Notes: generated from the letters alone by a model not told the origin. A stretch of 61,148 nt of DNA from an uncultured Actinomycetes bacterium (GCA_903843225.1 CAIMOX010000004.1:1-61148); one strand, 5' to 3'; positions 32,171 to 50,247 are shown, counted from the first letter of the stretch. A program made the numbers and translations.

Positions 32171-32243
32171 GGGCCTATAGCTCAGTCGGTAGAGCAACGG
32201 ACTTTTAATCCGTGGGTCGACAGTTCGAGCCTGTCTGGGCCCA
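32171..32243 (+). tRNA. tRNA-Lys(TTT), copy 1
   Basis: A 73-base cloverleaf: acceptor GGGCCTA/TGGGCCC, anticodon loop CTTTTAA, T-arm GACAG-TTCGAGC-CTGTC, discriminator A; CCA not encoded. It differs from copy 2 (47,811) only by one compensated base pair in the T-stem (A-T here, G-C there). It marks the left edge of the catabolic cassette. Confidence 0.96.
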
Positions 32244-32283
32244 CTTCTCTGTAGTCCCGGCGTACCATCTTCTATAAATCAGA

Positions 32284-33408
32284 TTAGGCCACGGTGTATT
32301 TATCGACAAGATCAAGATCAAGTTCAAGTCCTAATCCGGGAGCTGTGGGAACTTTGATCTTGCCATTTGCTGGGGTCGGATAACCGCCAATAAATATCTC
32401 GCGAAGTGGATTATCAATAAACATATATTCGAGTCTGTATAACTCAGGGGCAGCTGAAGCAATTTGCAGCGCTGCTAGATGACTAATACCACCAGAGAAT
32501 CCAGTGTGAGGTGCAAATCTTGCACCAAATGCATGTGTTAATACCATTGCATGGCGTGCTCCAGTGATTCCACCACAACGTGCGAGGTCAGGTTGAACGA
32601 CGTCAAGTAAGCCGCGCTCAAGAAACTTTCGGAAGCCATAAGCTAGGAAGACAGTCTCTCCACCAGCGAGTGGTACCGAGGAATGCTGTCGCACTGCTGC
32701 ATAACCGTCAAGATTGTCAGGATGGACCGGTTCTTCGAAGAAACATATATCGAGATCTTCAAGGCGCTTAGCCATCCACACAGCATCTGCGGCGTCATAG
32801 GCGCTATTTGCATCGAGACCTAGCTCTACCTTATCCCCAACAGCTTCACGAATCGCTCGAATTTTTTCGATATCAGCATACTTTCCGCCAGATTCTTTGG
32901 AGTGGCCTGACTTAAGTTTGATCATTGTGTGACCCTTGGCCATCTGGTCTTTCGTTTCAGCGATCATCTCTTCGGTTTTCGCAATGTAAACAGATGATGC
33001 GTAGACCTCAAGCTCATCGCGGCCGGCTCCATATAACAAGTCACGGATTGGTTTATTTGCCTTTTTGCCTGCAATATCCCACAGCGCTGTGTCGATTCCA
33101 CTGATTGCCTCAATAATGATTCCGGCAGAGTGCCCGAAGCGGCGGAGTTGATTTACCATAAAGAGGTAGAGACCTTCGATTTTTTCAGGATCTTTGCCAA
33201 TGAGTAGGGGAGCAAAGAGCTTTTCAACTGCTTCTTTGGTGGCTTCTCCACCCGACCGAGCGATGGATTCACCATACCCGATGATTCCTTCATCGGTCTC
33301 AATGGTTACCAAGACTGCACTAAATTCAGGATAGCGACCCGCAGCAAAAACCACACTCTTTTCAGGGCGGCCTTTCAGAACTCGGGCGTTGATTTGGGTT
33401 ATTTTCAT
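32284..33408 (-). CDS. Enolase-superfamily sugar-acid dehydratase (mandelate racemase / muconate lactonizing enzyme type)
   Basis: A 374-residue protein with the N-terminal capping domain and a C-terminal barrel. Catalytic Lys pair in MIKLKSGH; metal ligands Asp in GLDANSAYD, Glu in FFEEPV and Glu in AGGETVF; His in APHTGFSGG. This KxK/His set is the mandelate-racemase subgroup, where most members dehydrate aldonic or uronic acids to 2-keto-3-deoxy acids. The exact substrate cannot be read from sequence. It is the last gene of a minus-strand operon of kinase, dehydrogenases and aldolase, which supports a sugar-acid dehydration step. Confidence 0.85.
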   Translation of the reverse strand: MKITQINARVLKGRPEKSVVFAAGRYPEFSAVLVTIETDEGIIGYGESIARSGGEATKEAVEKLFAPLLIGKDPEKIEGLYLFMVNQLRRFGHSAGIIIEAISGIDTALWDIAGKKANKPIRDLLYGAGRDELEVYASSVYIAKTEEMIAETKDQMAKGHTMIKLKSGHSKESGGKYADIEKIRAIREAVGDKVELGLDANSAYDAADAVWMAKRLEDLDICFFEEPVHPDNLDGYAAVRQHSSVPLAGGETVFLAYGFRKFLERGLLDVVQPDLARCGGITGARHAMVLTHAFGARFAPHTGFSGGISHLAALQIASAAPELYRLEYMFIDNPLREIFIGGYPTPANGKIKVPTAPGLGLELDLDLVDKYTVA

Positions 33409-33426
33409 ATCATCTCCTTGTAGTCA

Positions 33427-34779
33427 TTAGGTATTAATTAGTCTTTTAGCAGTCGGTGAATTCGTTAAGTCATCAAACCCTGCTGCCCTACTTGCTAATT
33501 GGGCAGCACCAAAGCATCCAGGTTCAGAGATTTCTGAAATATAGAAGTCACCCAGGTAGATACTTTTAGTAACTGTAATTGCTTCGTTTCTCAGCCATCC
33601 ACCACAAGCCACAATGCTTGTGTGACGACCGAAATGCTGATCGAGCATGTTGACTCCACGTTGAGCCCGACGACCAACAAAATCTAACGCACCTCTCCAG
33701 ATGCGCGCATCACTTTCTTTCTCTTCATTTTTCATAAGACTCCATGACGCTGGGTCGAGTTCATTAAAAACTGGCCCATCCACAACAGATAATGCATCTT
33801 GGCTCAAATGTAAGATGGTGGCTTGGTTCCCCTCAAACTCACCCTTTATTCCCATGATCTCAAGCGCACTTTTAAGTATCAGGCCCGATCCAAGTCCCAC
33901 CATCGCGGAGTAACGACCAGGAAGAGGATGTCTTCCGATAGTGATTCCATCGGCAACTGCAGCTTCAATTGTTTGGGGTGAGAGTTGATCTAATCGAACC
34001 TCCCTGGAGAGTGCTTCGCCTGTTCCCATTGAGTCTACGATGTTGAAAGAGTTGCTCTCACCAGTACCAATAGCCGCACACATATGATCATGACCTGCAA
34101 CTATTAATGCTGCCCCATTGAAGTGTGAACCCTTTCTATCGATTCTTCCCAAAATATCTTGCGTGCTGACAAGTTCAGGCATCTCAAAATGCGTCTTAAA
34201 TACGGCATTCTGGAAGTCATCGCGCCAATCATCAGCCAATATGTCGTACAAGCCAGTACGTGATGCCAATGATCTTTCAGCTACCAGTTTTCCACCGAGG
34301 ATGAAGGCAACCCATTCGGGGACTCCAACCCATCGCGCACCCTGAGGAAATGTGATTTGGGATTGTAACCACAATAATTTTGCGATTGTGGCGCGACTAT
34401 TAGTTGGAAGTCCTGTGATGCTTGTGAATTCTGATCGAGTGACCTCTGTGAAGAGTTCCTCAACTACTTCATCAGGACGGCTATCATTCCAAGCAAGAAT
34501 GTTGCACAATGCTTCATCTTGCATATCTAGGATTAATCCAGCTTCAGCCATCCCAGTTATCCCAAAAGCCTCGATGGGGGAAGTTATGTGTACGTCAATT
34601 TCCGCTAACACATCAACAATGACTTTATGCAGGTCCCCAGATTGCATCTCTATTTGGCGGCCAGACACTTTCCAAGGAGTGGGTCGAGAAGCTGACGTAA
34701 CTACCGTTCCATCTGAGGAAAAAATGCAACATTTGACGTTGGTCGTACCCACATCAAGGCCGGCAAATAATCGCGTCAT
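33427..34779 (-). CDS. FGGY-family carbohydrate kinase
   Basis: A 450-residue kinase; start taken as ATG at 34779 (MTRLFAGLDVGTTNVKC), since a longer frame adds residues that overlap the next gene upstream. The phosphate-binding DVGTTNVKCCIFSSDG and the SMGTGEALS region are family signatures; GGWLRNEAI is the C-terminal adenosine-binding block. FGGY kinases phosphorylate sugars, polyols or keto acids. Within this operon it probably phosphorylates the 2-keto-3-deoxy product before aldol cleavage. It is one base from the aldehyde dehydrogenase stop, so expression is coupled. Confidence 0.85.
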   Translation of the reverse strand: MTRLFAGLDVGTTNVKCCIFSSDGTVVTSASRPTPWKVSGRQIEMQSGDLHKVIVDVLAEIDVHITSPIEAFGITGMAEAGLILDMQDEALCNILAWNDSRPDEVVEELFTEVTRSEFTSITGLPTNSRATIAKLLWLQSQITFPQGARWVGVPEWVAFILGGKLVAERSLASRTGLYDILADDWRDDFQNAVFKTHFEMPELVSTQDILGRIDRKGSHFNGAALIVAGHDHMCAAIGTGESNSFNIVDSMGTGEALSREVRLDQLSPQTIEAAVADGITIGRHPLPGRYSAMVGLGSGLILKSALEIMGIKGEFEGNQATILHLSQDALSVVDGPVFNELDPASWSLMKNEEKESDARIWRGALDFVGRRAQRGVNMLDQHFGRHTSIVACGGWLRNEAITVTKSIYLGDFYISEISEPGCFGAAQLASRAAGFDDLTNSPTAKRLINT

Positions 34780-34780
34780 C

Positions 34781-36226
34781 TTAGATCCGTACGTTGATGT
34801 ACTTAGTGACAAGATAGTCATTTAGAGGGTTTGGACCACCCTCACGGCCAAAGCCTGAAATCTTTACCCCGCCTGCTGGAGCCTCGGCTGTCGCGATAAC
34901 GAGATTGTTGATTCCAACCATCCCGACATCCAATTCGGCGCTTATCCTCATGGCTTCGCGAAGATCTGTCGTGAAGCCATAACCTGCTAAGCCATACGGC
35001 ACTGAATTAGCAAAAATAATAGCCTCATCAAGAGTTTTGTAAGTTTTCATAGGAAGCACGGGTGCGAAAGGTTCCATCTGCCAAATATCAGCGTCATCAC
35101 CAGGATCTGAAACGATCGTTGGTGTAAAAAAGTAACCATTTGAAAAATTACTATCTACTTGTCCCCCGGAAAGAATTTTTCCACCATTGTCAATAGCATT
35201 TTTTGTCAAAGATAACGCCCGATCCAGAGTGCGTTTATTGAGAAGGGGACCGACTGTGCTTGACGGATCCGTCGCTGGCCCAACTTTTAACTCATCCAAT
35301 TCAGCGAGAAGATAATCCGTGAATTCTTTTTCGATAGATTCTTGAACAATCAAACGACTCATAGCGATACATACTTGCCCATTGTTTCGCCATTTACCTT
35401 TCACTACAGCTTTCGCGGCTTCTTTCAGATTGGCTTTTTCAGTAACGATGCACGCCGCATGTCCACCCAACTCCATTGTCGAAGGGATTACTCTGTCAGC
35501 CGCCAACTTCAATAATTTCTGACCAACCGAGACAGACCCAGTGAGGCTAATTTTGTGAATGATGGGCGAGGCGATAAGTCTCTGTGAAATTAATTCTGGA
35601 TCACCTGTGAGGAGATTAATAACACCTGCGGGCAAACCAGCCACCATCAGAGTTTCAACGAGGGCAATTGCGGTGAATGGTGTCTCTTCAGCGGGTTTGA
35701 GAATCACAGAACAACCCGCTGCGATGGCTGATGCCATTTTTCTGGCTGCTAGTAGTGCGGGAAAGTTACTCGCCGTAAACGCCGCTACGGGGCCAACAGA
35801 ACTTTGTATTGTCCAGAGACGCAGGTCTTGTGATCTTGCGGGGATAGCCTCACCAAAGATTCGACGGGCCTCATCTGCGCACCAATCAAAGATCTCTGCT
35901 GATCCTTGAATTTCTGCTTCAGCTTCAGCAATAGGTTTTCCTTGCTCTTGGCTGATAGTGAGAGCAATCTCTGACTTTTTTTCAATCAGGAGCCTCGCTG
36001 TTTCACGTAAGACCTTTGTACGATCCCAAGGATTACTGATGCGCCATAAAAGCCAAGCCTCGTGAGCTGCCACCAAGGCTTCATCGATATCTTTTGTATC
36101 TGCCATGGCGCAGTATCCAATGGTTTCCTCCGTTGCCGGATTGATCACAGTCAGTTTTCCAGCGGAGCGAGAGTCCCGCCATATTCCTCCAATGAAAAGC
36201 TTGCCCTCTTTCATTGTGCTACTCAT
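34781..36226 (-). CDS. NAD(P)-dependent aldehyde dehydrogenase
   Basis: A 481-residue ALDH of succinate-semialdehyde/glycolaldehyde dehydrogenase type. Nucleotide binding ILKPAEETPF, catalytic Glu in MELGGHAACIV, catalytic Cys in NNGQVCIAMSRL, and C-terminal GLAGYGFT and GFGREGGP. It probably oxidises the aldehyde released by the aldolase step (or an earlier sugar aldehyde) to an acid. It overlaps the alcohol dehydrogenase gene by four bases. Confidence 0.9.
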   Translation of the reverse strand: MSSTMKEGKLFIGGIWRDSRSAGKLTVINPATEETIGYCAMADTKDIDEALVAAHEAWLLWRISNPWDRTKVLRETARLLIEKKSEIALTISQEQGKPIAEAEAEIQGSAEIFDWCADEARRIFGEAIPARSQDLRLWTIQSSVGPVAAFTASNFPALLAARKMASAIAAGCSVILKPAEETPFTAIALVETLMVAGLPAGVINLLTGDPELISQRLIASPIIHKISLTGSVSVGQKLLKLAADRVIPSTMELGGHAACIVTEKANLKEAAKAVVKGKWRNNGQVCIAMSRLIVQESIEKEFTDYLLAELDELKVGPATDPSSTVGPLLNKRTLDRALSLTKNAIDNGGKILSGGQVDSNFSNGYFFTPTIVSDPGDDADIWQMEPFAPVLPMKTYKTLDEAIIFANSVPYGLAGYGFTTDLREAMRISAELDVGMVGINNLVIATAEAPAGGVKISGFGREGGPNPLNDYLVTKYINVRI

Positions 36227-37227
36227 AGAATAATCTCTTCAGAACACGTCACAAGAATTTTCATGGCTGACTTTCGCTTCATCGCCTGTAGTGCCTCTTC
36301 AAATGACTCTAGTTTGTAAATGTCCGTCACTAATATTTCCAGATCATCGTCTGTGGTTGAGAGGAGTTGAACAGCTTCCGCAAAGGTGTTGTTAATGGAG
36401 AATGAGCCCATGATGGAGATCTCCCAGCGGTTAAGCATCTGTGGTGAGATTAGTATTTGATCATCTGGCTGTGCAACACCCATAATCAAAAAGATTCCAC
36501 CATTCTCAACGAACTTTACAGAGTCTTGCATCACAGCAGCACTTCCTGTTGCATCAATGACAATATCCCACTTGTCATTAGCCAATAGATCCTTTGGATC
36601 TAGAACTGATCGGATTCCAAGACGTGATATCAGATTTCTACGCTCTTTAACGGGCTCGATGACCGTAACATCGGAGGTGAATTTCATTAGCACGTAGGCA
36701 AATAGGCTACCGATAGGACCACCACCGATAACTAAGACCCTTTTACCTTTTACATCTGTGAGTTTTACCATTCCAGTCAGTACACATGCGAGCGGTTCGG
36801 CAAGTAAGGCTGTTTTCCAAGACATGCTTGACGGAACGAGAACACAAGACTTCTCTTGAATAGCTACAAAATTACTGAAGCCCCCTGGATATTTCGTGCC
36901 GTAACCCCCCTTTGTTCGGCAGAGATTACTTTTTTCAGAGATACAGAATTTACAGTTTTCACAAGTCCGTGATGGATTTACGACGACGCGGTCACCAACT
37001 GCAAATGTGGTGGCGCCACTACCAATGGAAACTACTATGCCACCAAATTCATGACCTGGAATGATGGGAAAAATCACAGCTGTATTTGACCCAGATAGCG
37101 TATGAAGGTCGGTTCCACAGATACCCGAAGCTACCACCGAAATAACAACTTCATCCTCATGTGCCACTGGTTTTGGAGCGTCTGCTATTACCCAATCATT
37201 TGCAGACTGAACAAGTAGAGCGCGCAT
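36223..37227 (-). CDS. Zinc-dependent alcohol/polyol dehydrogenase
   Basis: A 334-residue medium-chain dehydrogenase. Catalytic zinc ligands in SGICGTDLHT and PGHEFGG; structural zinc Cys pattern C-x2-C-x2-C-x7-C in CENCKFCISEKSNLC; Rossmann motif VLVIGGGPIGSLFA. It resembles threonine, sorbitol or galactitol dehydrogenases that oxidise a secondary hydroxyl with NAD. In this operon it most likely performs the first oxidation of the incoming sugar or polyol. Confidence 0.88.
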   Translation of the reverse strand: MRALLVQSANDWVIADAPKPVAHEDEVVISVVASGICGTDLHTLSGSNTAVIFPIIPGHEFGGIVVSIGSGATTFAVGDRVVVNPSRTCENCKFCISEKSNLCRTKGGYGTKYPGGFSNFVAIQEKSCVLVPSSMSWKTALLAEPLACVLTGMVKLTDVKGKRVLVIGGGPIGSLFAYVLMKFTSDVTVIEPVKERRNLISRLGIRSVLDPKDLLANDKWDIVIDATGSAAVMQDSVKFVENGGIFLIMGVAQPDDQILISPQMLNRWEISIMGSFSINNTFAEAVQLLSTTDDDLEILVTDIYKLESFEEALQAMKRKSAMKILVTCSEEIIL

Positions 37228-37234
37228 TTTAGGG

Positions 37235-38083
37235 TCAGAGATTTTCTTCGTATGCAGTGACCAACATTTTGAAATTCCCCGCTACTTCAGTGATGAGTTG
37301 AGAAGCATTAACGTTTCCTTCTAGGTATTTGCCGATTGGTGCTTGCCAGACACTTCTACCCACAGCGAATCCCGAGTAGTTAGGAGCCTTTGCTGCATTC
37401 CCAACCCAGTTTTGAACTGCTTCAAGAGAGGCGCCACTACCAAGAACAATTAGCTGAGAATTGAGCTGCTCAAAGATCTTAAGCTCACCAATTTGCTTGG
37501 TGTGATCTTCAGAGTCGAGGCCTTCAATCTTCCAGACCGCAGGATTAACTCCTGCATCAGAGAGTTCCGTAATCGTTGACTTAAGTTCAGGGAAGAGTCC
37601 GTCTTTTGAGATTCGAGAGCGTGTTGATTCTTCTGATTGATTAATGATAATTTCAACGAGGTAGTCGTAGTTATTTACTTGGCACCACTCTTGAATTTTC
37701 TTAAGGAGAGTAATTTGGCGTTCTTTTCGGCCCGAATCATCACTGGATGAGTGAAAAATCAAAGTCTTTACTAAGTCAGGCTTGAATTTATCGATATGAG
37801 CTGGGAAGTCGTCTCCGTACTGCAGAATCATTTCAGGAGTTCGGCTAGCTTCGACCGGCATGGATAGCAGGAGTCCACGTTTTTTCGTCTCTATTGCGGC
37901 CTCTGCACCGTATTCTTCATCGACTAAGTAACCGAATCTGCCAGGGACCTGGCCCGCGACTTCAGACAAAGCATCGAGAACTAATAACTTAAGTTCAGAG
38001 TACTTTTTTTCATCTTTTCCAGGGAAGAGATCTCGGAGCACCTTCCGATGATCGAAAGCTAATATGCAAAGAGAATCTTTCAT
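37235..38083 (-). CDS. DUF2090 aldolase-like protein (IolJ-type 2-deoxy-5-keto-gluconate-6-phosphate aldolase domain)
   Basis: A 282-residue protein; start chosen at ATG 38083 (MKDSLCILAFDHR) because the family begins there, whereas the longer frame to 38149 adds non-conserved residues. LAFDHRKVLRDLF, GYLVDEEYGAEAA, WKIEGLDS and GFAVGRSVW are characteristic of DUF2090, a domain that in inositol catabolism is linked to cleavage of 2-deoxy-5-keto-gluconate 6-phosphate. Here no other inositol gene is present, so it probably cleaves a related phosphorylated keto-deoxy acid. First gene of the catabolic operon. Confidence 0.8.
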   Translation of the reverse strand: MKDSLCILAFDHRKVLRDLFPGKDEKKYSELKLLVLDALSEVAGQVPGRFGYLVDEEYGAEAAIETKKRGLLLSMPVEASRTPEMILQYGDDFPAHIDKFKPDLVKTLIFHSSSDDSGRKERQITLLKKIQEWCQVNNYDYLVEIIINQSEESTRSRISKDGLFPELKSTITELSDAGVNPAVWKIEGLDSEDHTKQIGELKIFEQLNSQLIVLGSGASLEAVQNWVGNAAKAPNYSGFAVGRSVWQAPIGKYLEGNVNASQLITEVAGNFKMLVTAYEENL

Positions 38084-38193
38084 CTGTGTACCTACCCTAA
38101 AGAAGTGGAAGATATTTGGACTTCCAACTGAACTCCAAAACCTTAGCACCCCTTGAAATCTTTTTCAATGCCCTTTTTTCCGCGGGCTCCTTC

Positions 38194-39009
38194 TTACTCA
38201 GCAAGGACGACCTCTATGCCGCTGTTTTGCAATCGACTCACGATCTTGGGGTTTGCATCAGCGTTTGTGATCAGAATATCGATTTCATCGATGTTGCAGA
38301 TTTTTGAGGTAAAAACGGCTTCAATTTTTGATGAATCTGCCAAGACAATTTTCTGTCTCGCTGCAGATAAAATCGCTTGCTTCATGAGAGCATCTAAATG
38401 AGAACTTGTTGTAAACCCTCTCTCCAGAGAGACTCCTGAGACTCCTACAAACGCTACATCAGCTGATAATTCTTCGAGAATACGTAGCGCCCACTCACCC
38501 CCTGAGGCGAAGGTCTTTGGATTCACTTCTCCACCCGTCACGAGCACTGATTGAAATCCTCGATAGGAGAGCTCTAAGGCGGCTGGTAATCCCATTGAAA
38601 CGATTGTTGGTGAGTAATCGACAGGGACGCGCCTCGCTAGTTCCAAGACGGTTGTTCCGGCATCAAAAATAACCACTCCACCATGGGGCATGTAGTTCAA
38701 AGCGGCAAGGCCAATAGCCACTTTCTCTTTCACTCGTAACATCGAGCGCTCTGAAGCCGTTGGGGCTTGAACTTTCAGGAAACCAGGAGCTCTCAAGACA
38801 GCCCCACCATGAACGCGACCGATTAGCCCACCATTTTCCAACTTAATGAGGTCTCGTCTGACAGTTTCATTTGTGACCGTGAAGAGGCTTGCTAATTCAT
38901 TAACATCAACTCGCTCATTTTTGTTGAGTAAATTAGAGATCGTTTCGAGGCGCTCGGTAGCCTTCGTTGCCCGAGGTCGTGTTTCAGGCTTCTGAGTTTT
39001 CTTGGCCAT
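38194..39009 (-). CDS. DeoR/GlpR-family sugar-responsive repressor
   Basis: A 271-residue regulator; ATG at 39009 lies 6 bases from GGGAGG. N-terminal winged helix (ELASLFTVTNETVRRDLIKL, then LIGRVHGGAVL) and a C-terminal DeoR sensor domain of the isomerase-like fold (VVIFDAGTTVLELARR, FVGVSGVSLERGFTT, VLADSSKIEAVFTS). Such repressors sense a phosphorylated sugar intermediate. It lies between the divergent catabolic operon and uptake genes and likely controls both. Confidence 0.9.
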   Translation of the reverse strand: MAKKTQKPETRPRATKATERLETISNLLNKNERVDVNELASLFTVTNETVRRDLIKLENGGLIGRVHGGAVLRAPGFLKVQAPTASERSMLRVKEKVAIGLAALNYMPHGGVVIFDAGTTVLELARRVPVDYSPTIVSMGLPAALELSYRGFQSVLVTGGEVNPKTFASGGEWALRILEELSADVAFVGVSGVSLERGFTTSSHLDALMKQAILSAARQKIVLADSSKIEAVFTSKICNIDEIDILITNADANPKIVSRLQNSGIEVVLAE

Positions 39010-39126
39010 CACTTGCCTCCCTCCCCTTCACTAGATACGCCATCAGCCTAATACGACGGAGCCCTTTGCCGAAAGAGGAATGGGAAATTACAAAATGTTA
39101 TAAATATGGATTTCAATAAAAATCCC

Positions 39127-39165
39127 ACAATATTGTTGACTCAGCTGTGCAAAGATGTTTAAATT
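39127..39165 (+). promoter_or_regulatory. Promoter and candidate operator of the CUT1 uptake operon
   Basis: TTGACT (39,136-39,141), an 18-base spacer and TAAATT (39,160-39,165) fit a housekeeping promoter. The perfect palindrome ACAATATTGT (39,127-39,136) overlaps the -35 box and is a plausible repressor site. The whole 39,010-39,236 interval is gene-free and AT-rich. Confidence 0.5.
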
Positions 39166-39236
39166 CCACGTTAAGTGGGTAAAAAACTCACTAGGAGTTC
39201 ATCCGACTATTGAACGAGCAATGAAAGGTGCAGAAA

Positions 39237-40565
39237 ATGGTACGTCAAAGTCTCCAATTTAAGAACCGGATTAGCATTGTGACTCTCGGAATGGTCACTC
39301 TTGCAGGCCTGGTGACTTCAATTTCGAGTCCTGCAAATGCTGCAACTCCCATAAGTCGTGCATTCGCTGGGACTACCCTCAATGTTCTTGTTGATGCCAC
39401 TCCTAGAGGCCAGTTGCTCTTAAGTAGCACCATTATCAAAGACTTTGAAAAGGCAAGCGGCATGACGATCAATGTAGATGCCGTTCCAGAATCTGGAGTC
39501 ATAACAAAAGCCCTCTTGGCACTTGGTGCGGGTCAGGGTCAGTACGATGTTATTGAAAATGGCGCCAAGTCAGTGCCGCAAGAAGTGGATTCCAATTGGC
39601 TGCTCCCGTTAGACAAATATTATGCCGACTCAGCAAATGCTAGTTTCATGAGTGGGTTCTCGCAAGGAACTATAAAATCCCTTTCATATAAGGATCATTC
39701 CTATGTCACCCCGTTCAACATGGGTGGAGTTGTGTTGTATTACAACAAGGAAATGCTCAAAGCTGCAAAGATCAAGACTCCACCAAACACAACCGAACAA
39801 TTGGTAGACGATGCAAGACGATTGAATAGTAGTGATCATTTTGGAGTTTGTTTCCGCGGAACTCGTGCTTCAAATTCCAATTCATTCGGCTGGATCATGT
39901 TGTGGATGTTGAATGGTGGTCGCTGGGATCCATCAGGGACAGGTAGATACGATGTCCTAACCGATGCACCTGCGATCAAGACTGCTCAGCAATATCAAGT
40001 TCTATCACATTACGCGTCACCGGGAATCGCAAGCCTCAACTTTGACGACTGCCAAACACAGATGGCACAAGGAAAGGTTGCTTTGTGGCTCGATGACGCC
40101 GCACTTGGACCTGCACTTGAGATACCTGCAAAATCTACCGTCGTGGGAAAAGTTGGCTACAGCGTGCTAACTGGCAAGGCAGCTGGAGACGAGAAATATG
40201 TCCCTGGTGCTGTTTGGGGTTACTCAATCGCTAAAACAACAACGCGCGCAGATGCTGCTTGGGAACTAATTAAGTATCTGTCAGGCAAGGACGTGAACCT
40301 TGCTACTACGTTGGCTGGCGCCTCGGCTCCTGCTCGCACTGACGTTCTCGATGACCCAGGCGTCATTGCCAAACTAAACCCTAGTTATATGGCAGCTTTG
40401 AAACTGTCTTGGTCTCACGTGAATCCTGCATACTCACCACTAATCTCCCAAGGTGGGGCGATTAGATCTGCACTCGCACTTGCGGTCTCTCAGATTCTTT
40501 CAGGGAGCAGTCCAACAGGGGCGATGACTCAGGCAAATAATACGGTTAAGCAGCTCACTAAATAA
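39237..40565 (+). CDS. Sugar ABC transporter substrate-binding protein (CUT1 type)
   Basis: A 442-residue exported binding protein. ATG 39237 has AAAGG 8 bases upstream; an upstream GTG at 39228 is less likely. Signal peptide ends SSPANAAT. The mature part is a family 1 extracellular solute-binding fold (STIIKDFEKASGMTINVDAVP, VTPFNMGGVVLYYNKEML, YSIAKTTTRADAAWELIKYLSG). No lipobox Cys follows the signal, so anchoring must be different or the protein is loosely bound. It is the first gene of the uptake operon and is separated from the permeases by a hairpin. Confidence 0.88.
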   Translation: MVRQSLQFKNRISIVTLGMVTLAGLVTSISSPANAATPISRAFAGTTLNVLVDATPRGQLLLSSTIIKDFEKASGMTINVDAVPESGVITKALLALGAGQGQYDVIENGAKSVPQEVDSNWLLPLDKYYADSANASFMSGFSQGTIKSLSYKDHSYVTPFNMGGVVLYYNKEMLKAAKIKTPPNTTEQLVDDARRLNSSDHFGVCFRGTRASNSNSFGWIMLWMLNGGRWDPSGTGRYDVLTDAPAIKTAQQYQVLSHYASPGIASLNFDDCQTQMAQGKVALWLDDAALGPALEIPAKSTVVGKVGYSVLTGKAAGDEKYVPGAVWGYSIAKTTTRADAAWELIKYLSGKDVNLATTLAGASAPARTDVLDDPGVIAKLNPSYMAALKLSWSHVNPAYSPLISQGGAIRSALALAVSQILSGSSPTGAMTQANNTVKQLTK

Positions 40566-40575
40566 GGAACTAACT

Positions 40576-40611: not shown

Positions 40612-40637
40612 CATTGGCAAGAAATGAGAAGAAGATT

Positions 40638-41618
40638 ATGCCAAAACAAGTAAAAGAAGAAGTGACTGCCTCACGAGGTGAGGGTTCTAAACACTTACAA
40701 CATATCAATCAATCGATACGAGATGATGTGTCACGCTTTGGTATTAAGGCAATTCTCTTTAGTGATAGTGAACGCTTGTATAAGATGCTTGTGGTCATAC
40801 CATTCGGAGTTCTTTTTGCTCTTACTGCCTTACCACTTCTTGCTACTTTTGTTACAAGCTTATTCGGTTGGTATCTTGGCGATCCAATGGGGCCAAAATT
40901 TATTGGTTTTAGCAACTACTCTCAAATGTTTTCTGATCCCACATTTTGGAATTCAATAGGTAAGACTGCCTATCAAGTTATCGTGACCGTTTCAGGTCAA
41001 ATGGTATTGGGAATGTCTTTTGCCCTTTTGCTTTCCCGCAAATTCCGAGGTGTTGGCCTTCTTCGCTCTCTTTATATTATTCCAATGATGATCACCCCCG
41101 TCATAGTCGGACTTCTGTGGCGGATGCTTTTCAATCCAAGTGGTGGTGCCATTAATTATTTTTTGTCCTTGGTTGGAATCCATGGTCCAAATTGGCTGGG
41201 AGATACTCGAACCGCAATGCCAGCGATTATTCTCACGGATCTTTGGTTTTCAACGCCTTTTGTGGGAGTAATCTTGCTAGCAGGTATTTTATCTATACCG
41301 ACAGAGATTTTTGAGGCAGCACGTGTTGATGGGGCAAGTGCAAGTAAGATCTTTTGGAATATTACATTACCCTTACTGCGACCGATGATTTTTCTATCAC
41401 TTCTTTTTCGCCTGATGGATGCGATGAAGAGATTCGATTCAATCTACGTCATGACTGGAGGTGGTCCAGGAAACTCCACTGAAACGCTTGATCTACACAT
41501 ATATTTCGCTACTTTTGAGAACCTTCAAGTGGGGTATAGCGCTGCGATGGGTTGTGTCCTTTTGGTCCTAATATTTGGAGTTTCAATAGTAATTTTAAGA
41601 AAAATGGAAAATGAATAA
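40638..41618 (+). CDS. Sugar ABC transporter permease (MalF/UgpA type)
   Basis: A 326-residue protein when started at ATG 40638 (MPKQVKEEVTASRG), which has GAGAAGAAG upstream; a TTG at 40614 is in frame. A cytoplasmic head of about 45 residues is followed by six membrane helices and the permease coupling loop EAARVDGASASKIFWNITLPLLRP. It overlaps the second permease gene by eight bases. No ATPase of this system is encoded nearby. Confidence 0.88.
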   Translation: MPKQVKEEVTASRGEGSKHLQHINQSIRDDVSRFGIKAILFSDSERLYKMLVVIPFGVLFALTALPLLATFVTSLFGWYLGDPMGPKFIGFSNYSQMFSDPTFWNSIGKTAYQVIVTVSGQMVLGMSFALLLSRKFRGVGLLRSLYIIPMMITPVIVGLLWRMLFNPSGGAINYFLSLVGIHGPNWLGDTRTAMPAIILTDLWFSTPFVGVILLAGILSIPTEIFEAARVDGASASKIFWNITLPLLRPMIFLSLLFRLMDAMKRFDSIYVMTGGGPGNSTETLDLHIYFATFENLQVGYSAAMGCVLLVLIFGVSIVILRKMENE

Positions 41619-42441
41619 TAGGAAGAGCAGTAAAGTTCAATCACACTTCACTACCGTTTTGACCTATGTGATTGTTTTAAGTTCTCTTCTGCCGCTCTTG
41701 TGGCTCGTCTTAACCTCTCTAAAAACTCAAGTGGAAGCTTTGAAAATGCCTCCGAGTATTATTTTCAAGCCTTCATTAGAGAACTTTAGAATGGTTTTAG
41801 GTCGGGGGTCATTTGTTCACGGTTACATCAATAGTCTCGTAATAGCTCTCGGCACGACTTCGATTGCATTGATTTTCGGAATATCAGCCGGATATTCATT
41901 GTCCCGACCTTCCGGACAAGGTAGCAAATATATGGGTAGGTGGATAGTTTTGGCGCGAATGGCGCCACCCGTTACTTTTGCGATTCCACTCTATTTAGCG
42001 TTTAGCCATCTTAAAATGTTAGATAATTATTTTAGTTTAATCATTACCTACTTAACGATTGTTTTACCATTTGTAACTTGGCTGATGCGTGGATTCTTCA
42101 AGTCGCTGCCACCTGAAATGGAGGAAGCTGCTCGAATCGATGGGTGTAGTCGTATCCAGGCGCTATTTCGAATCCTGATCCCGTCAGTTAAATCTGGCGT
42201 GGCTACATGCGCCATCTTCGGAACAATCATGGCTTGGAACGAATTCTTTTATGCTTTGATCATTTCAGGAAGAAATACCAGGCCAGTTTCGGTCGATATT
42301 CAAACCTTCATCAGCGCCGCAGGGACCGATTGGGGCGCGCTCACGGCCGCTGGGCTCTTAGTTGTTGCGCCAGTCCTTCTCTTCACTGTATTCGCCCAGA
42401 AGGGGCTGCTCAGGGGCCTCACTTCAGGATCTGTTAAGTAG
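41611..42441 (+). CDS. Sugar ABC transporter permease (MalG type)
   Basis: A 276-residue six-helix permease with the coupling loop EEAARIDGCSRIQALFRILIP and the typical PPSIIFKPSLENF segment after the first helix. Overlaps the first permease gene. The operon ends here; the ATPase must be supplied from elsewhere, as with shared MsmX/MsiK-type ATPases. Confidence 0.9.
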   Translation: MNNRKSSKVQSHFTTVLTYVIVLSSLLPLLWLVLTSLKTQVEALKMPPSIIFKPSLENFRMVLGRGSFVHGYINSLVIALGTTSIALIFGISAGYSLSRPSGQGSKYMGRWIVLARMAPPVTFAIPLYLAFSHLKMLDNYFSLIITYLTIVLPFVTWLMRGFFKSLPPEMEEAARIDGCSRIQALFRILIPSVKSGVATCAIFGTIMAWNEFFYALIISGRNTRPVSVDIQTFISAAGTDWGALTAAGLLVVAPVLLFTVFAQKGLLRGLTSGSVK

Positions 42442-42492
42442 GAAAAGAAGCCGTAGAGCCCTCGTTCCACAGCTTGTTAATATTTAGTGGAA

Positions 42493-42527
42493 GTCAACAA
42501 AATCTCCACAAAACTATTGACTTTTGT
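42493..42527 (+). promoter_or_regulatory. Candidate promoter/operator of the CUT2 operon
   Basis: Two nested inverted repeats occur: GTCAA (42,493-42,497) with TTGAC (42,517-42,521), and ACAAAA (42,508-42,513) with TTTTGT (42,522-42,527). TTGACT at 42,517 could be the -35 box, but no clear -10 follows at the right spacing. It lies about 90 bases before the CUT2 binding protein gene. Confidence 0.35.
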
Positions 42528-42615
42528 ATTTGCTGCGAATTAGCCTTGCTGGAGAGGTATAAACCCGGGGATACCTTAGTGAACGAGATTCCGGATACAG
42601 GAAGGAATAACTTAA

Positions 42616-43569
42616 GTGCTCGCAAAAAACAAAAATACTAGGCGAATGATCAGCGCTTGCACCGCTGTTATCGCCGCGATGGGACTCTCTGCTGGAGTCA
42701 CATCGCAATCTCAGGCTACTACCAAAACCCTTGGTCTTATTATCTTCAACGGCCAGGACACATTTTCTCAGCTAGCCGAAAAGGGCATTTTGGCCGCTGC
42801 CAAGACAAATGGCTGGACAGTCAAGACCGTTGACGTGGCAGGTAGTGTTGATGGGGCTAATAGCGCAATCCAAAATTTTGTAAGTGCAAAGGTCAACGCA
42901 ATTATTGCGACCGTTGTTGCCAGCACCTCTTTAAAGTCAGGCCTGGCTCAAGCCACGAAAGCTGGTATCCCGGTCGTGAGTCAGTCTGGTGGATTAGCAC
43001 CAGGCATTGCGGGTAACGTTACAAGTGTCAACGACGTTTCTAATGCCGCACCACTTCTTGATATGGCGAAGGTGATGGGAGGCAAAGGCAGGGTTCTAGC
43101 ATTTACTTTCAAGCCAGGTCTTCCATGCTTGCTCCGCGAGAACACTCTTGATTCAGTTATGAGTAAGTATCCAAACATCACTGTTACTAAGTCTGAACTT
43201 CCAAGCGATGGCCACGCAGCATATGCTGCCTCAACCACTGCTGCTTGGTTGCAAACCAATGCTTCATACTCAGGAAATCTTGCAGTGTGGGCTTGCTACG
43301 ACGATCCTGCAGTTGCAGCGATCAGCTCAATCACTGCATCGGGCAAGAAGGCATTTGTCTACGGCTATAACGGAAGTGCAGATGCGCTGGCTGCAATTAA
43401 AGCTGGAACAATGAAAGGAACAGTTTTCTTTGATCCGATCGCGACGGGTAAGGCTACATTTGCAGCTGTTCTGACCTCCCTTAAGGCAGGTAAAAAGGCA
43501 AATCTTGGAACGATCGCGGCGCCGTTTACGTTGATAACATCAGCAAACGTGGCAACTTTACTTCCATAA
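42616..43569 (+). CDS. Sugar ABC transporter substrate-binding protein (CUT2, RbsB-like)
   Basis: A 317-residue exported protein starting with GTG at 42616, GGAAGG upstream. Signal peptide ends near SQSQAT. The periplasmic-binding-protein-like fold shows LGLIIFNGQDTFSQLAEKGILAAAK, DGANSAIQNFVSAKVNAIIATV, GIPVVSQSGG and FVYGYNGSADALAAIKAG. It resembles ribose- or inositol-type binding proteins. Followed by a strong hairpin, then the permease gene. Confidence 0.87.
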   Translation: MLAKNKNTRRMISACTAVIAAMGLSAGVTSQSQATTKTLGLIIFNGQDTFSQLAEKGILAAAKTNGWTVKTVDVAGSVDGANSAIQNFVSAKVNAIIATVVASTSLKSGLAQATKAGIPVVSQSGGLAPGIAGNVTSVNDVSNAAPLLDMAKVMGGKGRVLAFTFKPGLPCLLRENTLDSVMSKYPNITVTKSELPSDGHAAYAASTTAAWLQTNASYSGNLAVWACYDDPAVAAISSITASGKKAFVYGYNGSADALAAIKAGTMKGTVFFDPIATGKATFAAVLTSLKAGKKANLGTIAAPFTLITSANVATLLP

Positions 43570-43586
43570 AAAACAGCTCTAATTAG

Positions 43587-43630
43587 TGAATTATGAGCCC
43601 CACGCAGAAGTCGTTGGGTCTCATAATTCA
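43587..43630 (+). terminator. Hairpin between CUT2 binding protein and permease genes
   Basis: TGAATTATGAGCCC (43,587-43,600) pairs with GGGTCTCATAATTCA (43,616-43,630) with one bulged base and a 15-base loop, then a T-rich TTATTTAG. Like the hairpin at 40,576 it lies directly after a binding-protein gene. Confidence 0.7.
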
Positions 43631-43695
43631 TTATTTAGGTAGATTCACATTTGTTGGAGTTGTAGCGCATTAGACGAAAGGACAATCAAAGATCC

Positions 43696-44691
43696 ATGAA
43701 GTCAAATCTAACGTTTGTTGAAAAAGGCACCAGATTCCTTGTCAACTACAGCGCACTTATTGTCCTTGCGGTTCTCATTGTTGTCTTTGGGACTCTAAGT
43801 CCAAGCGCATTTTTTAGTTTGAATAATCTGCAGAACATCTTTGTGCAGGCATCCCCCGGTGGAGTAGTGGCTCTAGCCTTAACTATCACGATGATCGTCG
43901 GGGAGTTTGATCTTTCTGTAGGTTATATGGCGAGCCTTGCAGGTCTGCTTGTCTTTGGTTTTATGGTCAACCATCATGATAGTTTCATTCTCTCAGTCTT
44001 TTACTCCCTCGGTGCTACATCCCTTCTGGGATTGATCAGTGGACTTATAGTCTCAAGGCTTAAAGTGAATGCTTTTATAGGAACCCTTGGTATCGGTTTC
44101 GTGGCAGTAGGTATCGTCTACTCCTTTAGTAACGGCGCACTCATTACAGGTAAGACCCCTCACATTGTTGACACTCTTGGTTTAGGTTCGATTATAAAGA
44201 TCCAGAACCTCACCCTTCTATGGATTTGTTGTATCGCCATCTTGTGGGTCGTAACAGAGCGGACACCATTAGGGGTTCATATGCGTGCCATCGGTGGACA
44301 AGCACGTGCTGCAGAGCTAGTTGGGCTTCCAGTCGCAAAAATTAGAATGTGGGCGTTCGTTTGTTCTGCATTTCTTGCTGGGTTCGGTGGAATTATGTTG
44401 TCTATGCGTCTTGGCAGTGGCCAGCCAAATGCAGGAAATGGCTACTTACTCGATGGATTTTCAGCTACCTTTTTAGGCAGGGGTTTTTATCGGGCGGGAG
44501 AATTTAGCGTTCCAGGGACCGTAGTGGGAGCGCTCATTCTGCAGGTTGGCTATAACGGACTGGCAATTATTGGTATGCCAACGGCTGCCAAATACTATTT
44601 CTCGGGTGGAACGCTTGTAGTGGCACTTGCCTTAGGTACTATCGCGGGTAGTTATCACTTCAAATTAAATGATAGAAAAAGAAAGAAATGA
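43696..44691 (+). CDS. Sugar ABC transporter permease (RbsC type)
   Basis: A 331-residue polytopic permease. Family signs are the GEFDLSVGYMASLAGLL segment, RLKVNAFIGTLG, the MRAIGGQARAAELVGLPV loop and the FLGRGFYRAGEFSVPGTVVGALIL segment near the C-terminus. It overlaps the ATPase gene by four bases. Together with the neighbouring binding protein and ATPase it forms a CUT2 importer. Confidence 0.9.
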   Translation: MKSNLTFVEKGTRFLVNYSALIVLAVLIVVFGTLSPSAFFSLNNLQNIFVQASPGGVVALALTITMIVGEFDLSVGYMASLAGLLVFGFMVNHHDSFILSVFYSLGATSLLGLISGLIVSRLKVNAFIGTLGIGFVAVGIVYSFSNGALITGKTPHIVDTLGLGSIIKIQNLTLLWICCIAILWVVTERTPLGVHMRAIGGQARAAELVGLPVAKIRMWAFVCSAFLAGFGGIMLSMRLGSGQPNAGNGYLLDGFSATFLGRGFYRAGEFSVPGTVVGALILQVGYNGLAIIGMPTAAKYYFSGGTLVVALALGTIAGSYHFKLNDRKRKK

Positions 44692-45452
44692 ATTCAATGA
44701 CTGAGCTAATCCTTCAACTTAAGAACGTTAGTAAGAAATATGTTGGTCTTACAGCATTGCATCCGAGTGACCTCGACCTCTACTCCGGTGAGATTTTGGT
44801 AATTTTAGGTAGTAATGGAGCAGGAAAATCCACACTATTGAAACTTATGTGCGGCGCGGAGTCTTCGGATTCTGGAGAAGTTATTTTTCTTGGAGCCCAA
44901 CAGAAACATTGGAGTGTCGCGACTTCCCGATCCCTGGGAGTTGAAGTAGTGCACCAAGAGCTCGCTGTTGTCGGAGAATTGAATCCGATTGAAAATCTTT
45001 ATTTGGGCCGCGAGCTTGTTGTCCATAAGCGATGGTGGCCATTCTTGGCGCGACGAGTAATGCGTAAGGAAGGCAGTGACCTACTGAGGTCCCTTGGAGC
45101 TCAACTTTCGAGTCTGAAAGGGAAGACAGTTGAGTTATCTGGCGGCCAGCGCCAAGCTGTTGCAATCGCACGAGCCGTAGGGTGGGGAGAGAAGCTCATC
45201 ATCCTGGATGAGCCCACAGCTGCATTAGGTATCGCTGAAACTGCTGAGGTTGAGCAGATGATTCGCACGTTACGCGGGCGGGGGTTAGCAGTAGTCCTTG
45301 TTACTCATAGATTAGATCAGGCAAAGAATCTTGCAGATAGAGTCGCTGTTGTGCGCCAGGGCAGGATTGTTGGAAATTTTCTCAAGGCAGATATCGAAGT
45401 TGGAAAACTTGCCATCTTGATCACGGGCGAGGAGAGCGCGAGTGTGGTGTAA
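44688..45452 (+). CDS. Sugar ABC transporter ATPase, single nucleotide-binding domain (CUT2)
   Basis: A 254-residue ATPase: Walker A GSNGAGKST, signature LSGGQRQAVAIARA (the QAVAIARA form is typical of CUT2), Walker B LIILDEPTAALG and H-loop LVTHRLDQ. Classical RbsA/MglA proteins have two such domains in about 500 residues; here there is only one, so the transporter must use a homodimer, as FrcA-type ATPases do. Coupled by overlap to the permease. Confidence 0.9.
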   Translation: MNSMTELILQLKNVSKKYVGLTALHPSDLDLYSGEILVILGSNGAGKSTLLKLMCGAESSDSGEVIFLGAQQKHWSVATSRSLGVEVVHQELAVVGELNPIENLYLGRELVVHKRWWPFLARRVMRKEGSDLLRSLGAQLSSLKGKTVELSGGQRQAVAIARAVGWGEKLIILDEPTAALGIAETAEVEQMIRTLRGRGLAVVLVTHRLDQAKNLADRVAVVRQGRIVGNFLKADIEVGKLAILITGEESASVV

Positions 45453-45458
45453 CTATCT

Positions 45459-46421
45459 ATGGGAATGAGCGTTCCTTTCTATAATGAATTGCCGCGTCGA
45501 GGGGTAGCGCAGCAACGGGTTGGGTGGGACTTGTTTGGAGAGAGATATCCTCTTGGCAGGCTTAATTTGGTTGATTCACAAGTAGTACAGCAAGAATTAA
45601 TCGGAGTAGGCGATCCCACACCAATTTCTCTTAATTGGAATCTTGAGTATCCCGATCCAGGAATCTTGGGGAGAACGCCATATAAACATAATATAAAACG
45701 AGTCACTGATGGTTGGGATGACTATCTTGATGGTTACTTTCCGCAAGGTTCAAGTCAATGGGACGCGATGTGCCATTGTCGTCACCCTGAGCTTGGGTAC
45801 TACAACGGAGTATTAGCCACGGATGAATTCGATGGCGGTCTCTCGGTCCGAGAGAAATTAGGCATTCATAATCTTGCCCGTGCTGGGATTACCGCACGAT
45901 TCATTCTCATCGATATTGTGAACTTTCATGCTCAATCTGGCGTGTCCTGGTCCGGAATGTCAGGTTTCCAAATTTCTAAAGAATTACTCATCTCGATTCT
46001 AGATTTTCAAGAAACTACGTTACAAAGTGGTGACATCTTGATCCTTAGAACAGGGTGGACCGAGGAATATTCCAATTTCTCACCTTCTGCTCGAGTCCAG
46101 CTCGCCGCCGCCCCCTTGAAGATTTCTGGTCTTAAAAACGATGAATCATTGATCGAATGGTTGTGGGATCAAGGCGTTGTCGGCATAGCAGCTGACAATC
46201 CAACCGTTGAAGCGACGCCATTTGATGTTAGTGATCCAGCCACATTTATGCATTACCAGCTCATTCCTTTACTGGGGTTTTTGCTTGGTGAATTATTTGA
46301 TCTTGAGGCCCTTGCAAAGAGGTGCGCTGAGTCTTCAAAGTGGCATGGTGTGATTATTTCAGCCCCTCTCAATATCTATGCGGGTGTTGGTTCACCAGCT
46401 AATTCCATTGCGTTGGTCTAA
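45459..46421 (+). CDS. Cyclase-family (kynurenine formamidase-like) metal-dependent hydrolase
   Basis: A 320-residue cytoplasmic protein of the cyclase family: QWDAMCHCRHPELGYYNG occupies the place of the metal-binding HxGTHxDxP motif, LIDIVNFHAQ and GDILILRTGWTEEY are conserved blocks, and GIAADNPTVEATPF supplies a late motif. The metal motif is atypical (DAMCHCRH), as in a divergent subgroup that acts on amides, esters or lactones. In this position it may open a lactone or hydrolyse an ester of the imported substrate; this is inference. Six bases after the ATPase. Confidence 0.75.
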   Translation: MGMSVPFYNELPRRGVAQQRVGWDLFGERYPLGRLNLVDSQVVQQELIGVGDPTPISLNWNLEYPDPGILGRTPYKHNIKRVTDGWDDYLDGYFPQGSSQWDAMCHCRHPELGYYNGVLATDEFDGGLSVREKLGIHNLARAGITARFILIDIVNFHAQSGVSWSGMSGFQISKELLISILDFQETTLQSGDILILRTGWTEEYSNFSPSARVQLAAAPLKISGLKNDESLIEWLWDQGVVGIAADNPTVEATPFDVSDPATFMHYQLIPLLGFLLGELFDLEALAKRCAESSKWHGVIISAPLNIYAGVGSPANSIALV

Positions 46422-46429
46422 GAGGTTCA

Positions 46430-47608
46430 ATGCCAAATAATATAGTGGGGCATTTCAAAGGTAGCCCATTTGAAAAGATAGAGGAAATTTTCTATCAAAT
46501 ACTCACAGAACGTCCGCGATCTGGTCAGGCTTTATCAATTTGGCATAACGGTGGTTGTGTCCTGGATATCTACGGTGGGTTCTCAAACTATGAGAGGCGA
46601 CTAGCCTGGACGAAAGATACGCCAAGTGTCATTTTCTCCGCTACAAAAGGAATACTTTCTGTTATCGCTGCGCAATTAGTTCAATCGGGAGTTCTGAAGT
46701 ATGAAGATTTGGTGACAAAGTGGTGGCCTGAATTTAATCTTCAAGGAAGAGATCGATTGACAGTCAGAGACCTTCTTTCACATAGGGGCGGTCTACCAGT
46801 CCTGAAAGACGGTGTCACTCTCGAGCAGACTCTCGACTGGAATTACATGGTTCAACGGTTGGAGTCCGAGGATGTGCTGTGGAGATCTGGCTCTTACTAT
46901 ATGTATCACGCTATAACCTACGGTTGGTTGATCGGTGAGTTGATCGTACGTGTTAGCGGAATGTCACCTGGCGAATTTCTACAGAGCCAGATTGCCGTGC
47001 CCTTGAAGCTTGATAGTTGGATTGGGGTATCGGAAGATATTCAATATCAAGTGGCACAGATGTATACAGCTGACGGATTAAAGAATGCTTTCGCAAATAT
47101 TGAGGCTGAAGGCAGTTACTTTGGAGACTTAAGACTGCAAGCATTATCACTGGGGGGAGCTTTCACGCCAGAGCTAGTGGGTCCACAAAGTGGTTTTAAT
47201 GATCCACGAGTCCAGCAAGCTGAAGTTCCTGGGGCTAATGGAATATCAACTGCAAGATCGCTTGCAAAATTCTGGTCAGCAGTTGTGGTTGAGACCGATG
47301 GTATGAGGTTACTGAGTGACGAGGTGATTACTAGGGCGACTACATTGCAATCCACAGGTAATCCCTTCAATGAATTACCACCACCTTACTCACGTTTTGG
47401 AATGGGTTTTCAACTTGACTCAGAAGCCCGTAGGTACTTGAGCTCTCGATCTTTTGGCCATAATGGTGCTGGTGGGCAAACAGCTTTTGCAGATCTGGAA
47501 CACAAAATCGGCTTTGCATATCTGACGACAGAGATGGAAGACAGCGCCTGTGACACACGAGCTACTCGGTTAATTACAGCGCTAAGGGATGCATTGGCCC
47601 AAGGCTGA
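46430..47608 (+). CDS. Class C beta-lactamase-like serine hydrolase / esterase (EstB type)
   Basis: A 392-residue protein with GAGG before the ATG. Catalytic SxxK motif in IFSATKGILS, a Tyr-containing second motif (YYMYHAITYGWL), and SFGHNGAGGQTAFAD near the C-terminus in the place of the KTG box (HNGAGG). There is no signal peptide, so it is cytoplasmic, unlike true beta-lactamases; this fits EstB-like esterases. Probably hydrolyses an ester or lactone in the same pathway as the cyclase-like protein. It is the last gene of the catabolic cassette; the following 200 bases up to tRNA-Lys hold no evident gene. Confidence 0.85.
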   Translation: MPNNIVGHFKGSPFEKIEEIFYQILTERPRSGQALSIWHNGGCVLDIYGGFSNYERRLAWTKDTPSVIFSATKGILSVIAAQLVQSGVLKYEDLVTKWWPEFNLQGRDRLTVRDLLSHRGGLPVLKDGVTLEQTLDWNYMVQRLESEDVLWRSGSYYMYHAITYGWLIGELIVRVSGMSPGEFLQSQIAVPLKLDSWIGVSEDIQYQVAQMYTADGLKNAFANIEAEGSYFGDLRLQALSLGGAFTPELVGPQSGFNDPRVQQAEVPGANGISTARSLAKFWSAVVVETDGMRLLSDEVITRATTLQSTGNPFNELPPPYSRFGMGFQLDSEARRYLSSRSFGHNGAGGQTAFADLEHKIGFAYLTTEMEDSACDTRATRLITALRDALAQG

Positions 47609-47810
47609 AATTATGAGAAGGTCAAACCCTCTCGGTCTTTACTTCCTACCAGTCAGCACCTTAAAGAAGCGGATTACCTTGTTGCGCCAACGCTTTCCCT
47701 GCTGAATTGGATTTAATTCAAGCACTTGCATATGGGCTGGTTCACCAGGAGTTTTGACCTGTTCGCCTACCGTTATAGAGACTCTCCCACTGAGCGTGAA
47801 AGCGCTCGTG

Positions 47811-47883
47811 GGGCCTATAGCTCAGTCGGTAGAGCAACGGACTTTTAATCCGTGGGTCGACGGTTCGAGCCCGTCTGGGCCCA
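47811..47883 (+). tRNA. tRNA-Lys(TTT), copy 2
   Basis: Same 73-base cloverleaf as at 32,171 with T-arm GACGG-TTCGAGC-CCGTC. Promoter -10 box TATAGA at 47,774 and the leader are shared with copy 1. It forms the junction between the two cassettes and is the intact partner of the fragment at 60,663. Confidence 0.96.
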
Positions 47884-47940
47884 CTCATTTAGCGCATGCA
47901 ATGCGCAGTTGAGTGTGCTTTTACATCGAATCATCAATTC

Positions 47941-50219: not shown

Positions 50220-50247
50220 TTACGTAGACTCAAAAGGAGAATTTGTC

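Follow-up and report, generated by a model that had tools for sequence, protein, structure and literature searches.

A tRNA-Lys(UUU) gene as the probable docking site of an additive gene array in acI actinobacteria

The window analysed here is the whole of contig C4 (61,148 bases) of the 1.35-Mb genome G000, a MAG whose family is taken as Nanopelagicaceae (acI). The acI actinobacteria rank among the most numerous microbes of fresh water, and their very small genomes still differ in genes for sugar uptake, envelope and defence. The window was compared with 31 congeners and 264 other genomes of the family, giving a set of 296 genomes with G000 included, 32 of which make up the genus. The core gene order of the family runs from tRNA-Phe, tRNA-Asp and tRNA-Glu through a SIMPL-domain gene and a TsaC/Sua5 gene to tRNA-Lys, and the DNA 3' of tRNA-Lys is different in nearly every genome compared. 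The features of the window are collected in Table 1.

Table 1. Features of the window, with positions counted from its first base
Feature	Position	Strand	Basis or remark
Core left flank: tRNA-Phe, tRNA-Asp, tRNA-Glu cluster	19865..20242	-	ARAGORN; Phe-Asp-Glu order upstream of TsaC and tRNA-Lys in most relatives
Core left flank: TsaC/Sua5-like gene	21159..22121	+	ORF, cluster c2; tRNA-Lys directly next in many relatives; core promoter family behind gene
Lys1 leader, with hairpin	32140..32170	+	Identical to the Lys2 leader and the G007 leader
Lys1, complete tRNA-Lys(UUU), T-stem haplotype ACAG/CTGT	32171..32244	+	ARAGORN tRNA-Lys(ttt)
Catabolic block, genome-specific, without integrase	32246..47638	.	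ORFs, Pfam; no match in 31 congeners
C-terminal remnant (~40 codons) of the conserved FUSC/ArAE exporter gene c4	47639..47764	-	Cut at the Lys2 leader
Lys2 leader	47780..47810	+	Identical to the Lys1 leader
Lys2, complete tRNA-Lys(UUU); putative attL of type-1 element	47811..47884	+	ARAGORN tRNA-Lys(ttt); 3' half is the element's (L058)
Type-1 left end	47885..48061	+	Three other species have it at 95.8-98.4% identity over ~250 nt, counting the tRNA; identity stops here
Putative integrase arm site, left, TGGATGCAGTTCTTGGATGCA	47941..47961	+	Confined to tRNA-Lys element ends in the 296 genomes
HTH_17 excisionase-like gene	48129..48320	+	Pfam HTH_17 2.6e-13; PHROG excisionase 3e-8
Type-1 cargo: FAD oxidoreductase, nucleotide-sugar genes, glycosyl- and methyltransferases, acyltransferase	49011..59998	.	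ORFs, Pfam
Element-borne tRNA-Phe	60100..60174	-	ARAGORN; 98.7% identical in G004, G008 and L058 elements; 82-91% to host copies
Element-borne tRNA-Asp	60251..60325	-	ARAGORN; 98.7-100% in G004 and G008 elements
Putative integrase arm site, right	60543..60563	+	Repeat of the left site
tRNA-Lys 3' fragment from nt 25; putative attR of type-1 element	60663..60712	+	Repeat match to Lys1/Lys2
Left end of second element type (CATCTAGAAAAGCGGAATCTGCTG...)	60713..61148	+	Cut by contig end; last 269 nt 98.5% identical to G004 contig C43

Two complete tRNA-Lys(UUU) genes, Lys1 and Lys2, bound a catabolic block of about 15.5 kb, as the initial annotation had stated and ARAGORN confirms. They lie in a repeat of 110 nt (32136-32245 and 47776-47885) that is 97% identical with three mismatches, a match far beyond chance, and the longest exact run is 83 nt, beginning at 32139 and 47779. 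The two copies had further been credited with a common -10 box, leader and tRNA. The leader of ~31 nt (GACTCTCCCACTGAGCGTGAAAGCGCTCGTG), with a strong hairpin right before the tRNA, is indeed shared along with the tRNA; one mismatch, however, falls at the -10-like TATAGA, which stands 2 bp further upstream in Lys2, so that the common part is the leader and not an in-register -10 box. Lys1 and Lys2 do not differ in leader or 5' half; G007 has the identical leader and a nearly identical unit, and the leader set is shared less closely with G205, G055 and G004. With the Lys1 and Lys2 leaders the same, nothing marks either copy as imported.

The remaining two mismatches make up one T-stem pair, GACAG/CTGTC in Lys1 and GACGG/CCGTC in Lys2, and both stems are fully paired. 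This pair difference, which the initial annotation had read as compensated, is real, but the reading as a local compensatory mutation was rejected in view of the wide spread of the two 3' haplotypes. The 3' halves of tRNA-Lys fall into few haplotypes across the family, with several per genome, and the Lys1/Lys2 difference consists of two of these, probably imported by integration. The 3' half of Lys2 equals that of the type-1 element (see below) in the record L058, so the compensated pair probably came with that half.

The catabolic character assigned to 32.2-47.6 kb is borne out by Pfam, which identifies an MR/MLE enolase, an FGGY kinase, an aldehyde dehydrogenase, a Zn-alcohol dehydrogenase, a DUF2090 gene, a DeoR regulator, two ABC importers, a cyclase and a beta-lactamase-fold esterase. 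The block has no nucleotide match in the 31 congeners, its cyclase is present in 2 of the 296 family genomes, and a search of the sequence behind Lys1 for a tie to a known element end returned none. The idea that both tRNA copies form one clean unit is not supported at Lys2, whose left border falls in the truncated core gene c4. The N-terminal part of c4, its first 243 codons, closes contig C28 of G000, and ~70 codons of the gene are unaccounted for. Because c4 lies downstream of tRNA-Lys in G027 and a G007 contig ends at the c4 stop codon, the gene appears to border the tRNA-Lys variable region on the right in this sublineage. The remnant can be read in three ways: either Lys2 and its element interrupt c4, or the block carried the c4 end, or the assembly joins two strains.

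Behind Lys2, positions 47,811-60,713 hold an integrated element, here called type 1: its tRNA is regenerated, it has arm repeats and a gene resembling excisionases, and a 3' fragment of the tRNA has been displaced. This third tRNA-Lys copy (3'-only, 60663-60712) and the doubled tRNA-Phe and tRNA-Asp (at 19.9 and 60.1 kb) are additions to the initial annotation. The 177 nt behind Lys2 recur near-unchanged behind tRNA-Lys in G011, G004 and G008, where the tRNAs and flanks differ. In those genomes the left end is followed by an ORF starting MATRRSNGEGTVWYAKTEGRFRAQ, which has no Pfam match and which, judged by its sequence and position, is a probable arm-binding N-terminus of a tyrosine integrase; in the window this ORF is missing and the HTH_17 excisionase-like gene stands in its place. 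The arm repeat, TGGATGCARTTCTTGGATGCA, is found at both element ends and elsewhere in the 296 genomes only at such ends, a reversed-pattern control gave 0 matches, and the viral contigs searched contained none. A frame-broken remnant (~48540-48953) with a glyoxalase/VOC-like translation separates the excisionase-like gene from the glycan cargo.

The right end of the element, comprising tRNA-Phe, tRNA-Asp and CAACGTACTTTTAA joined to the tRNA 3' half, is found again in G004 and G008, and shorter stretches of it in G018, G016 and G205. Type-1 ends are common to G000, G004, G008, G011, G018 and G016 despite different host tRNA sequences. The two tRNA genes move with the right end: they are near-identical in G000, G004 and G008 (tRNA-Phe also in L058), and host tRNA-Phe copies differ by 9-17%. 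The cargo differs from element to element, with nucleotide-sugar and glycosyl genes in the window, an MmeI-type restriction enzyme in L056, a record matching G205, and a glycosyltransferase with methyltransferases in L058; the named records with type-1 ends are lake MAGs labelled uncultured actinobacterium and one binned as beta-proteobacterium. At attL the 3' half suits host base 7 in G000, G011, G004 and G008 (A-U, A-U, U-A and C-G) with the same element DNA behind it, an agreement that may indicate a compatibility barrier.

No integrase (PF00589) match was obtained on contig C4, and a search for a full-length type-1 integrase in viral contigs, phage records and the 296 genomes gave nothing but fragments at the ends of contigs. 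Other PF00589 loci of the genus were considered as the missing integrase and rejected, as no tRNA-Lys(UUU) fragment lies near them. Apart from this loss of the integrase, which makes it defective, the window element works like an Islander-type element. The sequence that comes after the 60,663 fragment is a different one, found in G018 behind a complete tRNA-Lys, which indicates a further element behind the first.

Across the family, all tRNA-Lys 3' fragments start at nt 25-34, with eight independent end types in this 10-nt span. The clustering has P ~8e-4 (by hand) for a uniform start over the detectable nt 2-37; a wider span gave 3e-5 and was judged too generous. From the other side, two 5'-only copies (in G006 and on contig C66 of G011) stop directly after CTTTTAATCC. 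Both sets of fragments agree and point to a crossover at the anticodon stem-loop ACGGA-CTTTTAA-TCCGT. The copy in G006 is the core tRNA-Lys (L114 9110-9160, contig C28 of that genome), with a DNA-methylase-like gene behind the cut; its 3' half lies on another contig (L021 98-144, contig C9), no complete tRNA-Lys(UUU) was matched in G006, and the arrangement looks like the state known from tRNA-dependent lysogeny. The G011 copy (L006 ~8933-8975, minus strand) is a tRNA-Lys 5' half fused to a 3' half from another tRNA-like sequence (GAAGGTTCAAATCCTTCACCCGCCACCA), so that the junction at the anticodon is chimeric. Intact integrase genes adjoin tRNA-Lys in G252, together with AAA and Prim-Pol genes, and in G145, together with an excisionase-like gene. 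The G252 element (L085 2063-11210, contig C8) is a compact, satellite-like tRNA-Lys element of 9 kb that encodes the integrase, an AAA ATPase, Prim-Pol and many small membrane proteins and lipoproteins.

The initial annotation had called for a comparison of the locus in relatives, and the result agrees with its expectations: the 32-48 kb block is absent elsewhere in the 32 genus genomes, tRNA-Lys in relatives is followed by nothing or by other genes, and the possession of both copies is not universal. Little or nothing stands behind tRNA-Lys in G021, G256, G123 and G133. The site in G021 is nearly empty, with one gene before the core resumes, and in the closed genomes G256, G123, G133 and G126 a transporter gene directly follows tRNA-Lys. 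Among closed genomes, G256 provides the empty site for G257, with flanks ~96% identical. In G257, 2,537 bp are inserted in tRNA-Lys. The insert holds, in order, a first gene, a complete tRNA-Lys whose promoter is different, a second gene and a 3' fragment of 45 nt, and synteny picks up again exactly behind it. PF00589 recombinases number two genome-wide in G257, both of XerC/XerD size. The tandem array by repeated site-specific insertion that the initial annotation had suggested is directly supported for 47.8-60.7 kb and across the family, and the 31 congeners and 264 other family genomes support its replaceable modules at tRNA-Lys.

Two complete tRNA-Lys copies are also found on one contig in G278 and G217. 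Across genera, the sequences upstream of these second copies are related to one another and distinct from the core promoter that follows TsaC; the two leaders of the window fall into another set of this kind. An A7-A66 acceptor mismatch occurs in 4 of 24 copies from 12 two-copy genomes and in 0 of 30 copies elsewhere (hypergeometric P 0.034 by hand, or 0.027 with 33 instead of 30), the multi-copy genomes being ones chosen for fetching. In G217 the first tRNA-Lys is chimeric and its T-stem is broken; the second is intact. Such hybrid tRNAs would be the expected product of one complete tRNA integrating into another via the anticodon loop.

The tRNA-Lys(UUU) gene of this family is thus probably a recurrent docking site and the window an additive array, a reading supported directly by the anatomy, the uniqueness of the cassette, the shared element ends, the breakpoint clustering, the closed-genome insertion and the hybrid tRNAs. 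The gene would serve as attachment site for elements with a tyrosine integrase as well as for gene cassettes that lack one, all crossing over within the anticodon stem-loop. The 47.8-60.7 kb module would be an element after integrase loss, with sugar and glycan cargo and tRNA-Phe and tRNA-Asp between its att sites; Lys2 would be its attL, rebuilt from the host 5' half and the element 3' half, the 60,663 fragment would be its attR, and a second element type would lie directly behind it in the array. The 32.2-47.6 kb module would be a catabolic cassette peculiar to this genome and enclosed by two complete tRNA-Lys units. Complete second units would arise because some modules bring along an entire tRNA-Lys gene, promoter included, and integration of such a module via the resident anticodon loop would leave two complete hybrid tRNAs. 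For the catabolic block, we infer that an integrase in trans moved it and that its circle carried a complete tRNA-Lys unit. Against this explanation stand the lack of an integrase in the window, the two-gene array of G257 with only XerC/XerD-size recombinases, the Lys2 border cutting c4, the leader common to Lys1 and Lys2, and the origin of the window from a MAG. Because that border cuts a conserved exporter gene, the whole-unit duplication in G000 could be a rearrangement, and confidence in its origin is below that in the array itself.

Homologous recombination in the 110-bp unit is an unlikely but still credible source of the catabolic module, which would have come from another strain as a circle or linear piece holding the catabolic block, leader and tRNA-Lys, with no integrase required. 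The identity of leader and 5' half between Lys1 and Lys2, the near-identity in G007 and the absence of an integrase from the block are in keeping with this, the 83-nt exact repeat suffices for RecA, and right-end DNA that is 94-98.5% identical to G004, a genome sharing ~70-79% with G000 in its flanking genes, shows between-species exchange at the locus. Such recombination cannot, however, yield 3'-only fragments, for which there is no homology upstream of nt 25-34, or shared element ends, and it accounts for the 32-48 kb module only. A local rearrangement is unlikely as well. In that case Lys2 and the type-1 element were duplicated or moved into c4, and the block already lay between Lys1 and c4, coming to be bounded by tRNAs only later; the ~40 c4 codons ending at the Lys2 leader, the N-terminal part at the C28 end and the placement of c4 in G027 and G007 would all follow. 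The closed genome nevertheless has whole-unit copies with their own promoter that show no such scars, and with ~70 c4 codons missing the break could be elsewhere.

It is rather improbable that the assembly collapsed strain variants at the tRNA repeat, so that Lys1 with the block and Lys2 with the element come from different strains. The source is a MAG contig with an 83-nt exact repeat, and in many relatives a contig breaks off no more than a few hundred bases from tRNA-Lys, but the c4/Lys2 junction lies outside any repeat, so reads must support it, and equal structures occur in a closed genome. Ordinary vertical duplication of the tRNA beside stable metabolic genes would explain two complete, well-folded tRNAs; it is highly improbable, given a block absent from 31 of 31 congeners and a region that is different in every relative examined. 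Beyond the docking-site reading, a bolder and doubtful proposal is an integron-like system on a tRNA gene, in which cassettes holding one to a dozen genes and no integrase would be captured in trans at the anticodon loop of the essential tRNA-Lys. Each cassette would end in a complete unit of promoter and tRNA-Lys or in a 3' half, every insertion or excision would leave a working tRNA, and the match of the 7-66 pair between the 5' half of the host and the 3' half of the element would limit the hosts open to an element.

Among known systems, the tycheposons of Prochlorococcus, attributed to Hackl et al. 2023 (cited in PMC10872708), are reportedly cargo elements at tRNA genes that reshape islands and have a characteristic deep-branching tyrosine recombinase. 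They are close in behaviour, tRNA-anchored cargo being present here too, but most cassettes here, including the window module, lack a recombinase. Islander-type tRNA islands (PMC4383910) likewise have a complete tRNA with a displaced same-orientation 3' fragment, an anticodon-centred crossover (class A) and tandem arrays. The bracketing tDNA and 3' fragment used by Islander are present in the window (47811-47884 and 60663-60712), relatives supply empty sites (G256, and G021 nearly so), and the integrase inside is absent; unlike Islander islands, the locus includes cassettes that lack an integrase, some of them single genes that the Islander filters would reject, and complete second tRNAs with their own promoter. 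The additive fGI1 of 'Ca. Actinomarinales' (PMC7771536) resembles the locus in its streamlined aquatic actinobacterial hosts, tRNA cassette targets, tRNA-fragment direct repeats and envelope-sugar cargo. It belongs to a different order and has five tRNAs in one glycan island, whereas here one tRNA-Lys has catabolic, defence and secreted-protein cargo. Anatomically the locus is an additive tRNA-anchored island of the kind known from Actinomarinales (PMC7771536) and Islander (PMC4383910).

Lysogeny that depends on tRNA, described for actinobacteriophages and mycobacteriophages at tRNA-Lys-TTT (PMC10865867), is defined in mycobacteriophages by the tRNA-Lys-TTT anticodon site together with an element-borne tRNA-Lys-TTT; its attB shares only a short core with the anticodon loop it overlaps, and the host tRNA is therefore not rebuilt. 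Shared with it are the same tRNA gene, the anticodon-loop core beginning with CTT, the element-borne tRNA of the same isotype and the disrupted host tRNA in G006. A complete same-isotype tRNA is borne by the elements of G257, G278 and G217 and presumably by the window block. In contrast to that system, the window has no identified phage genes and the host tRNA is rebuilt at attL (Lys2); a host tRNA that is not rebuilt is seen in G006 (disrupted, L114) and on G011 C66 (5'-only). The fGI-2 of 'Ca. Methylopumilus' at tRNA-Lys (PMC10872708) also combines tRNA-Lys 3'-end repeats and variable cargo in a streamlined freshwater bacterium, but its host is a proteobacterium, the gene is tRNA-Lys(ctt) and only the last 20 nt are repeated. 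The AICE set of integrase, replication protein and FtsK-type transfer protein is absent from the window, and no transfer protein was recognised among the scanned G252 element genes. As for integrons, no IntI-like gene was recognised on contig C4 or in G257, and the recombination sites are tRNA genes, not attC.

The tRNA-Lys locus offers a concrete entry point for acI sugar-uptake, envelope and defence genes that is common to several genera. It also provides a natural series on one tRNA gene, from regenerated and disrupted to duplicated with its own promoter, which bears on the evolution of tRNA-dependent lysogeny and of tRNA-carrying elements.

Two further observations concern other parts of the genome. 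On contig C28 of G000 (~8090-12924, L109), nested inverted repeats of 186 nt at 94% and 311 nt at 91% enclose a weak integrase-like ORF, and parts of them are found again on contig C17 of G007. The window carries seven consecutive secreted-protein genes at 7074-19241, the first and the last five of which share an ending like TC[IV]KGxxxKxxTAxxxxCPxGY[KR]KK, with a variant in the second. This C-terminal motif, which may be a surface-anchoring or assembly signal, also ends the gene directly behind tRNA-Lys in G135 (L074).
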